Positions 3,978 through 14,081 of a stretch of DNA of 35,413 bases are shown piece after piece (the first letter of the stretch is position 1; the number at the start of each line of letters is the position of its first letter). The translations under genes and the position numbers were made by a program. The stretch is from Vulcanimicrobiota bacterium (lineage in GTDB: Bacteria; Vulcanimicrobiota; Vulcanimicrobiia; Vulcanimicrobiales; Vulcanimicrobiaceae), in the NCBI GenBank assembly GCA_027315505.1, contig DAHUXY010000167.1, positions 1-35,413 of the forward strand, given 5' to 3'. A model generated the notes under the pieces. It made no database searches. It was not told where the DNA came from and saw only the letters and a program-made list of their open reading frames with translations.

Positions 3978-5173
3978 TGCACCTGTTGGCGGCTGCCGTC
4001 CTCACGATGGCCGACGTGGAACGCGCCGCGGTTGCCAATGCGCCGGCCGTTATCGCCGCGCGCGAACGCGTTCGCGAGCAGCGCGCGGTCGCCGCGTTAA
4101 CCGGGGCGTCGCGAATGCCGCATGCCTTCGCGAATTACGTACAAGCGCCGCAAGGCGGAGCGATCGGAACGATCACTCAGCGGCTCACAACCGTCGGCGG
4201 CCAATTCGCGCTGGGCGATTTCGCCGGTACTTCGGCGGCGCTGGCACAAGCGCGCTCGAACGTGCAACTCGCGCGGGCGCAGGAAATCGGCGCGCGCGAG
4301 GCCGAGCGCATGCGCGCCATCGGCCTGTTCTTCGACGCGATCCGGACGACGGAGATCGAGCGTTTGCGCGAGAGGATCGTCGCGGCCGCACAGGCCGATC
4401 GACGCGCGGCGCGCCTGCGTTACGCTGCCGGCGCAGCGCCGCGGCTGGACATCGTTCGCGCCGATGTCGCGCTCGCGAACGCGCAGGCCGGGCTCGCTCG
4501 AGCCCGGGCCGATCGCGACAACGCGCTGGGCGCACTCCGGCTTGAGACCGGCACGCCGGGCCCCGCTCTCGTTCTCCCCTCGCTCGCAAGCGCCGGCATC
4601 GGCGAACCGCCGGCGATCGCGCCCGCGACCGCGGTCGGCATCGGGCTGCGATTGCGCCCGGAGGTGCTTGCCGCGCGAGCCGGTGTCGCCGCGGAAGAGG
4701 CGGCGGTCGTGGCCGCGGAACGGGCGCGGCTGCCCGGCTTTACCGCGCAACTGGGATACACGGCGGGCGTGGACGGCGGCCTCAACGTCAAAGGCCCTAG
4801 CGCCAATCTCTCGCTGGACGTCCCGCTCTCCGGCGCCGGCGCCGACCGCGTTGCGGCCGAGCGGGCGCGCTTGGCGCAGGCCCGCGCGCGTTTAACGGGC
4901 GCGCAGCAGCTCGTTCAGGGTGAAATCGAGGCGGCGATCCGTTCCTCCGCGGCGGATCGCGAAGCACTCGTGGCGGCGGCACGCGCGCGCGACGAAGCGG
5001 CGGCCGAGGTAACCGCGACCGCGACCGGATATCGCAACGGCGCATCGTCGAGCCTGGATCTGCAAAACGCCCGCAGCACCTACGCGCAGGCCGCGATCGA
5101 TGCGGCCACGGCGGCCGCGACGCTCGATCGCGCCGTCGCGACGCTGCATCTGGTCATGGGAGAGAATCGTTGA
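3977..5173 (+). CDS. TolC-family outer-membrane efflux protein
   Basis: ATG at 3977 overlaps the RND stop (TGATG). Signal-like MHLLAAAVLTMADVERAAVANAPAV, Ala/Arg-rich coiled-coil repeats and GYRNGASSSLDLQNARSTYAQA typical of TolC proteins. Confidence 0.88.
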   Translation: MHLLAAAVLTMADVERAAVANAPAVIAARERVREQRAVAALTGASRMPHAFANYVQAPQGGAIGTITQRLTTVGGQFALGDFAGTSAALAQARSNVQLARAQEIGAREAERMRAIGLFFDAIRTTEIERLRERIVAAAQADRRAARLRYAAGAAPRLDIVRADVALANAQAGLARARADRDNALGALRLETGTPGPALVLPSLASAGIGEPPAIAPATAVGIGLRLRPEVLAARAGVAAEEAAVVAAERARLPGFTAQLGYTAGVDGGLNVKGPSANLSLDVPLSGAGADRVAAERARLAQARARLTGAQQLVQGEIEAAIRSSAADREALVAAARARDEAAAEVTATATGYRNGASSSLDLQNARSTYAQAAIDAATAAATLDRAVATLHLVMGENR

Positions 5174-6336
5174 CACATCGCCGCAGAACGCTTGCCGTCG
5201 CCATAACCGGCATCGTGGCCGTTGCCGCGGCGTGGTGGGTCCTGACGCACCGCGCGGAAACGCCGGCCCCAGCCCTCGCCTCACCGGCGGTGGAGAGAGC
5301 GGTCGCGCGCACCGGTAGCATCGCCGTTACGGTTCCCGCCGTCGGGCGTCTGGGCGCGAGCGGCGGGGCGCAGACCAAACTTGCCTTCACGAACGCGGGC
5401 CACATCGCCGCGATCGACGTGCAACTCGGCCAGCGCGTGGTCGCCGGCGAGACCGTGGCGCGCCTGGACACCACCGGTTTCGCGCTTGCCGCGCATCAGG
5501 CGCAGGCGCAGGCGCTTGCCGCGAACGCGCAGGCGCGCGCGGCGGCGGTGGATCGCACGTCGACGCGCCTGGCCGTAGATCGCAGCGCGCTCGCGCGTGC
5601 GAGCCGCCTGTATCGAGCCGGGGTCAGCGCGCGTAAAGACGTCGAAGCCGCGCGAGCGCAACTGGCGGCCGACGAGGCCGCCGCGCAGACCGATGCCGCA
5701 AATCGCGAAGCGGCGCAGGCGCAAGCGGCCGGCGCCGCCGCGCAGGCCGCGAGCGCGGAGCGCGATCTTTCCAACACCGCGCTGCGGGCGCCGGCGTCCG
5801 GCGTGGTGACCGCGCTCTATCACAATCCCGGCGAATACGTGGATCCCGGGGTTGCCGTCCTTGCGATCGCTCCGCCGGCGGGCGGAAGCGTCGTGCTGGA
5901 AGTCGCCGGTGCGGATGCTCTGCGCATCGCGCGCGGTGATATCGTGCATTTGCACGTTTCGGGCGCGGCTGAGACGCTCGACGGCCGCGTCGCCGGCGTC
6001 GCGGGTGCCGTCGACACGGCCACCCAGTCGGCGCAGGTTTCGGTGGCGGCCGCAATTCCCGCGGCTCTCGCCGGGAGCGCCGTCGATGCGTCGATCGTGG
6101 TCGCGCACGACCGCGGCGTTTTGATTCCCCGCGAGGCGATCGTCGCCGATCCCGCGACCGGCGCGACGCTGGTCTTCGCCTTGGAAAAAAACGGCGGTAC
6201 GACGGCGTTCGTCCAACGCGCGATTCACGTCGTCTTTCAAAACGATGCGAGCGCCGAGGTGACCGGGCTCGCGCCCGGTACCGCTATCGCCGCCAAAGGG
6301 GCGTTCGAATTGCTGGCTCCCGCGGGTGGCGGTTAG
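5170..6336 (+). CDS. RND efflux periplasmic adaptor (MFP/HlyD family)
   Basis: TTG start overlaps the TolC stop. N-terminal TM, lipoyl-like halves (GHIAAIDVQLGQRVVAGETVARLD ... LRAPASGVVTALYHNPGEYVDPGVAVLAIA) around an Ala-rich hairpin. Confidence 0.92.
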   Translation: MTHRRRTLAVAITGIVAVAAAWWVLTHRAETPAPALASPAVERAVARTGSIAVTVPAVGRLGASGGAQTKLAFTNAGHIAAIDVQLGQRVVAGETVARLDTTGFALAAHQAQAQALAANAQARAAAVDRTSTRLAVDRSALARASRLYRAGVSARKDVEAARAQLAADEAAAQTDAANREAAQAQAAGAAAQAASAERDLSNTALRAPASGVVTALYHNPGEYVDPGVAVLAIAPPAGGSVVLEVAGADALRIARGDIVHLHVSGAAETLDGRVAGVAGAVDTATQSAQVSVAAAIPAALAGSAVDASIVVAHDRGVLIPREAIVADPATGATLVFALEKNGGTTAFVQRAIHVVFQNDASAEVTGLAPGTAIAAKGAFELLAPAGGG

Positions 6337-6342
6337 CCCGGG

Positions 6343-8343
6343 CTACGAGCTGCGCGGGATCGCGATCGATTCGGAGAAGCGCGCTCGGACGGCATCTTCG
6401 ATGCGATCCGGCGATGCGGAGGTCGCAATCACGAACACGCTCTCGCCGTGCCACTTCACCGAGTCCATCTCCTGAATGAGCGAACCGATCAATTTCAGCG
6501 TTGCCGTGCTGCCGATTTGCACGTCGCTGCGCGCGGCGAGCATGTCGAGATCGGCGAGCAACAGAATCGACGGCGCGCTTTTACGCGCGCGCTCGAAGGA
6601 TTTTAGCATGAATTCATCCGGCTCGGGCTCGACCAGCGTAAGGCCGCTCTCGTATGCAACGGCGCGCGCGATGCGCGCGGTATCGTCCACATCGGGCCCC
6701 CAGAGGAGCACGCCGCGCGGCACGTCCACGCCCTGCTGCGCGAGTATTTTGGCGTTGGAGAACATCTTCGCGACGGCGTGTATGCGATCGAACACCGAGG
6801 GCGGAAGCCCAAAATCTTCGAGGCCGGGTTCGTCGCCGCGTTCTTTGCGTTCGCGCAACCGCGCGACGATCGTGAGGATCGCCTCGGTACTCAACGTCTG
6901 GGGGCCGAGTTCGCGGGCTTGTGAAACGACGTCCTCAAGATCGCCGGGCGTCAGCCCGGCGGTCGCGTCCACGAGCGCATCGTCGATGGGGAGATCGACG
7001 GCCGCGCGCCCCGCGGCCGCGTCGAAGATCGCACGGCGCTCCGCCGCGTCGGGTAGCGGCACCTCGAGGACGAGGCCAAAACGCGCGAGGATCTGCTCGT
7101 CGTGAGCGTTCCGCCCGTCGGCGGTCGCTACCAGCCAGACGTTCTCGGCATCTCTGACGCCGCTCCACTCCGAAAGCAAGAGCTTGAGCGAGGCTCGCTC
7201 GCAGCCCTGTGCGGCCAGGATCGTGCGGGTGCTGCGCGATTCATCGAAGACGCGGCGTATTCGCTCGAGACCGCCGTCGATGTCGGCCGGAGCGATGCGC
7301 ATTAATCGCGCGCCGGCGACCTTGGCCATCACGTCGAGGAGACGCGTTTTGCCGGCACCCGGCGGCCCATAGAGCAGGAGCGAACGAGTGGACGCGAGGG
7401 CGCCCATGCGGAAGAGCTGGACGCTCATATCGACCGACTCGCGGAGCTCTTGCGGAAGCGGCATCTGCTCGATCAGGTAACGGTTGCTGCGATATTCGTC
7501 CAACTCGCGTTCCAACTCGCGCGCGCGTTCTTGCGCGGCTTCCATCTGTGTGAAACGCAAGACCGCTCCGCGAAAGGTCTTGGCATGCAGGCTTACGAGC
7601 CCCAGGCGCAGTTCGAGTGCCCTTTGGAGAAAACTCCCGTACGCGCCTACGAACCGGTTGCCGAGATCGGCAAAGACGTGCGCCGGCGTTTTGCCGGGCA
7701 TGCGCGAGAGCATTACCGGCGACCCGTAGGTATCGATCACTTCGAAAAAACTCTCGTTGAGCGCTTCGTCGGTCCGCAAGGCCGCGATCTGCCACGAGCG
7801 CGGCGAAAGCTTGCCCTCCGCGCTGGGGCCATCGAAGCCGACGAGCGGATGTTCGAGCGAGGCGTCCGAGCGGGAGAAGGCGACGAGGCGGAGGTCCTTT
7901 CCGTCGTCGCCCAGCGATTTTTGCGCGGCCTTGACCGCCGCGACGCTCTGATTGCGGCCGACGACGAAGTCGACCGACGCGAAGACGGCGTAGATGACGA
8001 CCGACAACCCTATGCCGGCAAAATTCGATGCGAGCGCTTCGGCCACCGCAAGCCCGATCAGCGCGGCAAAAATGACGATACGCAGGCCGCCGTAGAGCCG
8101 CAAAGCCAGGGCTCCGGAGAAGTTCTTGCGGTCGGTCGCGGCGAGCTGGCGTTCGTAAACGTCGTGCCAGATCGTCGTGCCCGCGGCCGCGAGCGCGAGG
8201 TGGGTCTGCTTGAGATGCTCCGCGTCGGTCGCCACCACGCGTTGCAGCGAGTCGCGTTCGTCGCAGACTTTCGAAAGCGCTTCGGCGAGCGGCTCCTTGT
8301 TGATAATCAGCGTATCCATCGCCGTTACCGGTCGATCGTCCAT
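6343..8343 (-). CDS. Membrane-anchored AAA+ protein with two degenerate CDC48/FtsH-like ATPase modules
   Basis: Module 1 has Walker A GPPGAGKT; module 2 is AAA-like (GVLLWGPDVDDTARIARAVAYESG ... SAPSILLLADLDMLAAR ... VFVIATSASPDRIEDAVRARFSESIAIP). Hydrophobic TM region about 85-130 aa from the start. ATG 8343 chosen over TTG 8349. Confidence 0.85.
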   Translation of the reverse strand: MDDRPVTAMDTLIINKEPLAEALSKVCDERDSLQRVVATDAEHLKQTHLALAAAGTTIWHDVYERQLAATDRKNFSGALALRLYGGLRIVIFAALIGLAVAEALASNFAGIGLSVVIYAVFASVDFVVGRNQSVAAVKAAQKSLGDDGKDLRLVAFSRSDASLEHPLVGFDGPSAEGKLSPRSWQIAALRTDEALNESFFEVIDTYGSPVMLSRMPGKTPAHVFADLGNRFVGAYGSFLQRALELRLGLVSLHAKTFRGAVLRFTQMEAAQERARELERELDEYRSNRYLIEQMPLPQELRESVDMSVQLFRMGALASTRSLLLYGPPGAGKTRLLDVMAKVAGARLMRIAPADIDGGLERIRRVFDESRSTRTILAAQGCERASLKLLLSEWSGVRDAENVWLVATADGRNAHDEQILARFGLVLEVPLPDAAERRAIFDAAAGRAAVDLPIDDALVDATAGLTPGDLEDVVSQARELGPQTLSTEAILTIVARLRERKERGDEPGLEDFGLPPSVFDRIHAVAKMFSNAKILAQQGVDVPRGVLLWGPDVDDTARIARAVAYESGLTLVEPEPDEFMLKSFERARKSAPSILLLADLDMLAARSDVQIGSTATLKLIGSLIQEMDSVKWHGESVFVIATSASPDRIEDAVRARFSESIAIPRSS

Positions 8344-8367
8344 GACCAAACCCCGTCCGTTCTGTAG

Positions 8368-9033
8368 CTAGAGCGGGAGCATTTCCCTGACGTGAAAGAT
8401 ATGGAAGAAGAGGATCGTCGATCCCAGCGCGAGGAGCGAGCCGGCGATCACCTGCATCAGCGTGTGCGCCTTAAGGTATACGCGGGCCCAGCAGACCATC
8501 GGCACGAGAATGAGAAACGGCAGCGTCTGTTGCCCGTAGAGCAGCGTAAGCGCGACCAGCGGGGCGGTGATTCCGAGCGCGTGCGTGCTGATCTTCCAGT
8601 AACGCGTGATGTACTGGACGATCAACGTCGAGAGCGTGTATGCGGCCATCGAGGCGATCATCAAAATCGGCGAGCGCAGCATCCACAGCACCAGCGTGCC
8701 GAGCAAATAGAACACCACGAAGGCGCCCAGCACCGCTTCCCGCTCGTGCCGCACCGACATGTCCAGATCGGAGATGCGGTCGGTTCCGTAGAGCCAGAAA
8801 ACGTAGAGCATCGGGCCGAGCGAGGTGAAGAAGGTCGAGACGAAGAGCAGGAACCAAAAATCGAGCGTGCCCCGGGCGCTTGTATGGGCCAGAATGACAA
8901 AAAGCGCAAGCGCCGTTAGAAACGGGTTGAAGATCGTCGAGAGAATCCGAGCCAGGTCGCGCCAGACGCGACGCCCTTTGATCGCGACGACCGGGGTGGT
9001 GGGTTCCAGCACGAATCCTACTAACGTAGGCAA
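8368..9033 (-). CDS. PAP2-like (phosphatidic acid phosphatase superfamily) membrane protein
   Basis: Multiple TM segments and a PAP2-like tail KISTHALGITAPLVALTLLYGQQTLPFLILVPMVCWARVYLKAHTLMQVIAGSLL. No ATG start; TTG or GTG used. Confidence 0.65.
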   Translation of the reverse strand: MPTLVGFVLEPTTPVVAIKGRRVWRDLARILSTIFNPFLTALALFVILAHTSARGTLDFWFLLFVSTFFTSLGPMLYVFWLYGTDRISDLDMSVRHEREAVLGAFVVFYLLGTLVLWMLRSPILMIASMAAYTLSTLIVQYITRYWKISTHALGITAPLVALTLLYGQQTLPFLILVPMVCWARVYLKAHTLMQVIAGSLLALGSTILFFHIFHVREMLPL

Positions 9034-13601: not shown

Positions 13602-14081
13602 CTAGGCCTTTTTGCGGCGTACGGCCTTGCGAACGGCCTTCTTGCGCGCGGGTGCGGCGGCTTTCTTGCGTCCGCCGGCAGCCTTTTTACGTCCGCCGGT
13701 GGCTTTCTTGCGCCCGGCAGTAGCCTTCTTACGTCCGCCGGCAGCCTTCTTGCGTCCAGCGGTTTTCTTGCGTCCGGCCGTAGCCTTCTTGCGTCCGCCG
13801 GCAGCTTTTTTGCGTCCGACGGTCTTTTTACGCGTGGTCTTTTTGCGTCCGGCAGTCGCTTTTTTACGCGTTGCCTTCTTGCGTGTACCGACGGCTTTTT
13901 TGCGTCCGGCAGTGGCTTTCTTACGTCCGCCGGCAGCCTTCTTGCGCGTTCCGGTGGCCTTTTTACGGCCGCCCGCGGCGACCTTTTTCCGTGCGCCGGC
14001 AGCCTTTTTACGGGTTGCTTTGCGACGCGGTTTTTTCTCTTCGGCCATCGTGCCGCCATTCATCATGGTTTCGGAGTCCAT
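13602..14081 (-). CDS. Histone H1-like Lys/Arg/Ala-rich repeat protein, putative nucleoid-associated protein
   Basis: 159 aa made mostly of RKKAAGG/RKKATAG units. GAGGAGGA upstream of the start; clear promoter upstream and terminator downstream. Confidence 0.8.
   Translation of the reverse strand: MDSETMMNGGTMAEEKKPRRKATRKKAAGARKKVAAGGRKKATGTRKKAAGGRKKATAGRKKAVGTRKKATRKKATAGRKKTTRKKTVGRKKAAGGRKKATAGRKKTAGRKKAAGGRKKATAGRKKATGGRKKAAGGRKKAAAPARKKAVRKAVRRKKA
13605..14012 (-). repeat. Tandem imperfect ~21-nt coding repeat (RKKxxxG heptad)
   Basis: About 20 RKK tripeptides, mostly 7 residues apart (sometimes 5-6). On + strand the unit reads like CTTGCGTCCGCCGGCAGCCTT. Confidence 0.88.

Follow-up and report, generated by a model that had tools for sequence, protein, structure and literature searches.

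What might a membrane-anchored protein with two tandem AAA modules do when neither module retains a complete ATPase site? The question is posed by a gene on the reverse strand of a 35,413-nucleotide contig (DAHUXY010000167.1 of assembly GCA_027315505.1, from a Vulcanimicrobiota bacterium; this whole stretch is referred to below as the window). The ORF, at 6343-8349(-), comprises 668 codons when counted from TTG; the ATG at 8343, which is preceded by GGACGGGG, is the likelier start. The Pfam AAA model (PF00004) matches the ORF in two stretches (E 1.3e-20), and PDB sequence and profile matches to p97/CDC48-type chains span both modules, so the AAA similarity is not a matter of chance. All Pfam matches are of AAA type, and no peptidase domain was found in the protein.

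AlphaFold2 predicts a layout of coiled coil, helix pair, small beta domain, long helix and two AAA modules, with moderate confidence (pLDDT 61 for the window protein, whose module 1 is poorly modelled, and 73 for its homologue in genome G091). In Foldseek searches both models match tandem p97/Cdc48/Drg1 chains. The N-terminal transmembrane (TM) region proposed by the initial annotation resolves, by hydropathy, into two helices, and a hydrophobic stretch lies at the matching position in the G091 homologue and in a Geminicoccaceae plasmid protein to be discussed below. The part of the protein that is best conserved is not the ATPase modules (24-30% identity to homologues) but the small beta domain with its long helix (44-48%); the N-terminal coiled-coil helix is 24-35% identical. 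No PDB relative was found for the N-terminal domain or for the small beta domain and long helix.

The state of the catalytic motifs (see the table) was mapped by alignment to a canonical CDC48 protein from within the phylum (L006) and to intact relatives. In module 1, alignment bears out what had been read from the window by eye: Walker A is kept and Walker B is lost, the latter position reading VIFVDEAD in an intact relative, with ~14 residues deleted after it in the window protein. The loss of Walker A from module 2 is likewise borne out. Module 2 still has an arginine-finger region, but its Walker B has gone from IDE to LAD, a break that the first reading had overlooked, and its sensor-1 Asn is replaced by Ser, as the corresponding residue of module 1 is by Asp. 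In each module pore loop 1 is shortened or gone altogether (5 residues lost from the first, ~11 from the second). The protein terminates directly after the RARF of module 2, with no second lid, and a match of an intact relative running past the AAA stop codon into the adjacent HlyD gene is unconvincing as a lid remnant. Judged by its motifs, then, the window protein would be what was originally supposed in this respect, a tandem membrane-anchored pseudo-AAA protein whose module 1 at most binds nucleotide and whose module 2 lacks both Walker motifs.

Table. Position of the AAA gene, its motifs and its immediate neighbours in the window
Feature	Position	Strand	Basis or remark
HlyD-type efflux gene, convergent	5170..6336	+	stop 6 bp from AAA stop
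Putative double pseudo-AAA membrane protein	6343..8343	-	ORF opens at TTG 8349; ATG 8343 likelier start
Module 2 arginine-finger region AVRARF, near C-terminus	6376..6393	-	lid missing
Module 2 Walker B, degraded, ILLLADLD	6544..6567	-	compare IIFIDEID: D to A, E to D
Module 2 Walker A, lost, GPDVDDTA (aa 551-558)	6676..6699	-	lost in 7/7 homologues too
Module 1 lid/sensor-2 region GLTPGDLEDVV, kept	6925..6957	-	absent from the 7 homologues
Module 1 sensor-1 region VWLVATAD (Asn to Asp) and short second region ILARFG	7075..7140	-	alignment
Module 1 Walker B position, lost, TILAAQGCE (aa 376-384)	7198..7224	-	D-E pair absent
Module 1 Walker A, intact, GPPGAGKT (aa 328-335)	7345..7368	-	alignment
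Small beta domain and long helix (aa 150-294)	7468..7902	-	best-conserved part of the protein
Two transmembrane helices (aa 89-107, 112-130)	7960..8085	-	hydropathy
N-terminal coiled-coil helix (aa 17-78)	8116..8301	-	AlphaFold2 helix; pLDDT 73-90 over aa 21-70
PAP2 phosphatase-family gene	8368..9033	-	PF01569, 8.6e-08; 18 bp upstream of TTG, same strand

A profile search with the N-terminal part finds this AAA family in 8 of the 149 genomes of the phylum (Eremiobacterota), the window included, spread over four genera; a ninth genome, G001, holds only the first 13 codons and stands outside that count. Identity to the window protein is 32-34% for the seven homologues, which share about 60-80% with one another. 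Every one of them has lost Walker A of module 1 (SGDRLDLT, for example) and has kept what the window protein lacks there, the pore loop (YVGQGA) and Walker B (I[IVL]FIDEA[DE], that is, FIDEAD or FIDEAE). In module 2 all seven have lost Walker A as well (GPSRDARQ, GGSTGTKQ and similar), and Walker B is without its DE pair wherever it has been sequenced (an assembly gap covers it in G060). The lids are also distributed in opposite ways: the seven homologues are without the first and have the second, and the reverse is true of the window protein. Homologues with an intact module 1 Walker B had been named at the outset as grounds for abandoning the pseudo-ATPase reading. Formally such proteins exist, but, having lost Walker A, they strengthen the conclusion that there is no complete site: none of the eight genomes has a Walker A and a Walker B together in either module (the second Walker B of G060 lying in the gap). 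Pairwise dN/dS among the seven homologues is 0.18-0.40, an approximate figure (Nei-Gojobori; dS 0.6-1.3) that refers to these seven, the window lineage being represented by one full sequence, and there are no frameshifts among them. By these approximate measures the seven look to be under purifying selection.

No intact member of the family turned up within the phylum. Two sets of candidates were set aside. A ~640-residue two-module protein, present in all five genomes checked and considered as an active paralogue, is of the ClpB/ClpC type; it and its relatives (L104:2490-4397, for one) are rich in cysteine over an N-terminal stretch and may have a membrane helix, and its N-terminus is cut by a contig end in G000. 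In G056, G058, G059 and G093 the tandem AAA proteins are soluble CDC48 of the canonical kind. Such CDC48/VAT proteins, their motifs intact, are scattered in the phylum (L143, L144, L145, L006), and one carrier, G093, belongs to the window's own family. Beyond the phylum, searching GTDB genome contigs with the window protein alone gave no match, and searching them with the N-terminal alignment gave six loci, all of them members already found. Viral contigs yielded no match to the Eremiobacterota N-terminal alignment or to the Geminicoccaceae pair described next, defence-system models matched generic AAA parts only, and no description of this membrane AAA family was found in the literature.

A tblastn search of plasmids does find a protein of the same layout, on two linear plasmids, p1 and p2, of Geminicoccaceae bacterium SCSIO 64248 (WGF90971.1 and WGF91092.1), and this is among the closest known systems, with 30% identity across both modules. 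In front of its two AAA modules it too has a hydrophobic TM region and a small soluble one, and it shares the short second region (ILSRFG and AVRSRF in this case); the similarity of its N-terminal soluble domain is weak and appears in the full alignment only. In contrast to the window protein, it has GPPGTGKT, a DE-containing Walker B, a pore-loop region and a lid in both modules. The plasmid gene order is RepC-like, tandem-AAA, short hypothetical and type IV secretion system (T4SS)-type ATPase, with a TrbL-like gene nearby; gene sets are similar in L111:784-7659 and the matching L112 stretch, which are from the two plasmids of the one strain, and possibly constitute a transfer-related module. 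In a tree of single modules, those of the window protein, of homologues and of the Geminicoccaceae protein group by position, the first modules together (96/94) and the second together (93/95), apart from CDC48 D1 and D2 and from FtsH, with the caution that these are long branches and that long branches meet.

That tree bears on what the protein should be called. It shares with CDC48/p97/VAT (TIGR01243) two tandem classic AAA modules, with Foldseek and sequence matches over both, but it has TM helices in place of the Cdc48 N-domain, no PG before the arginine finger, and broken catalytic motifs. Its TIGR01243 score of 81.7 bits is far below the cut-off of 802.65, its modules branch elsewhere and Walker A/B are not intact, so that 'CDC48-like', if meant as membership of that family, must be given up. 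FtsH is likewise a membrane-anchored classic AAA protein, but one with a single AAA module and a C-terminal zinc peptidase domain; the window protein, having two modules and no such domain, is not FtsH. The ATAD2-like family and Pex1/Pex6 provide known examples of tandem AAA proteins in which one ring is dead and plays a structural part (PMC13060104, PMC10518020): D1 of Pex6 binds ATP and cannot hydrolyse it (PMC10518020), and in ATAD2B the AAA2 ring, which has no nucleotide, lends support to the active one (PMC13060104). In these cases one ring is active, whereas every member found of the present family is incomplete in both modules.

The genomic setting narrows another proposal, that the AAA gene forms an apparent operon with the PAP2 gene just upstream. 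PAP2 is present in 92 of 99 genomes of the family, its conservation there being unrelated to the AAA gene, and adjoins dxs in five of six loci examined (the window, G001, G033, G092 and G005; in G003 it is not next to dxs within the stretch taken). In the seven homologue genomes, which belong to the three other genera, holA and purB directly flank the AAA gene. The pairing with PAP2 is thus specific to the window's genus. In the window genome and G001, holA-purB is uninterrupted (a gap of 66-74 bp) and in the window the AAA gene instead follows PAP2; purB is about 0-241 bp from holA in 14 of 21 family genomes outside the four genera, and the stretches examined at the other seven holA loci show no purB. 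The core genes holA, purB, purC, purL and mtnA are ~77-83% identical, as against 33% for the AAA gene. The two insertion sites, combined with this disparity, imply one of two histories for the gene, a move with rapid divergence or two entries. A PAP2 tree places the holders of the AAA gene together with weak support (49/83) and does not decide between the two, and no clear insertion repeats were seen at the ends of the AAA gene. Elsewhere in the window, 13655-14012 contains tandem repeats with 21-bp units; read on the reverse strand, these could encode a repeat of 7 residues, basic and rich in alanine, that might be a histone-like tail.

The explanation that we favour, with rather better than even confidence, is that an active ancestor gave rise to a small family of membrane scaffolds in which both AAA modules are pseudo-ATPases. 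The protein would sit in the inner membrane, with its coiled coil, a two-helix TM hairpin, the small beta domain and the two AAA modules, and would descend from a membrane tandem-AAA protein that is intact in the Geminicoccaceae plasmid members and became a double pseudo-ATPase in Eremiobacterota. Module 2 probably died before the lineages split or around that time, since its Walker A is lost in both. Module 1 would then have been broken in opposite ways, the window lineage keeping the nucleotide-contacting P-loop and the lid and losing the parts for hydrolysis and substrate (Walker B and the pore loop), the other lineage losing P-loop and lid and keeping pore loop and Walker B. Such a protein might be a scaffold or adaptor at the membrane, assembling by way of its coils and AAA surfaces and making no use of ATP hydrolysis. 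By analogy with D1 of Pex6, ATP may be a structural ligand of module 1 in the window lineage.

The main rival concerns the window copy only, and would make of it a decaying gene, relocated, cut short at its 3' end beside the HlyD gene and released from selection. The missing second lid, a stop codon 6 bp from a convergent gene, the non-ancestral locus and the low identity to homologues set against that of the core genes are all what decay would predict. A reading frame that remains open over all of its codons, with a GC3 (0.80) that is coding-like and equal to that of the neighbouring genes, is not; nor is the continuing conservation of the beta domain. The gene start is also conserved in G001, which is of the same genus, in a stretch with 92% DNA identity to the window (the G001 contig ends 13 codons into the gene, the remainder of which was not found in that assembly or bin). 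On balance we think decay unlikely, though it deserves serious consideration. Less probable by a good measure is an active mixed ring, in which module 1 of the window protein would bind ATP and a partner AAA protein, FtsH for instance, would supply what it lacks. The genome does have FtsH as well as other AAA proteins, and the retention of P-loop and module 1 lid would suit such an arrangement, but Walker A and B of AAA proteins act in cis, a neighbouring subunit supplying the arginine finger only; moreover, no intact tandem paralogue was found, and the other lineage has lost the P-loop. That the motif breaks are assembly or sequencing errors is very improbable indeed, even for a fragmented metagenome assembly of 291 contigs, because the changes are several and in frame, with no frameshift, and because the loss of Walker A and pore loop from module 2 is common to seven separately assembled genomes.

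Within the favoured reading, that of double pseudo-AAA scaffolds with an active ancestor, a more specific history can be proposed tentatively, and we would put it at somewhat short of an even chance: an active plasmid-type membrane AAA machine would have entered Eremiobacterota, perhaps twice (there being two different insertion sites), and been turned independently into a non-enzymatic scaffold, with the same module broken in complementary ways. If true, this would amount to a natural experiment in which one half of an AAA module, that for nucleotide binding, is set apart from the other, that for hydrolysis and the pore. A single dead ring has precedents among tandem AAA proteins, the other ring working in the cases cited; here both modules are incomplete in every member found. 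With opposite breaks in two lineages and an intact relative to serve as active control, it would become testable which of the two halves is needed for a scaffold role.
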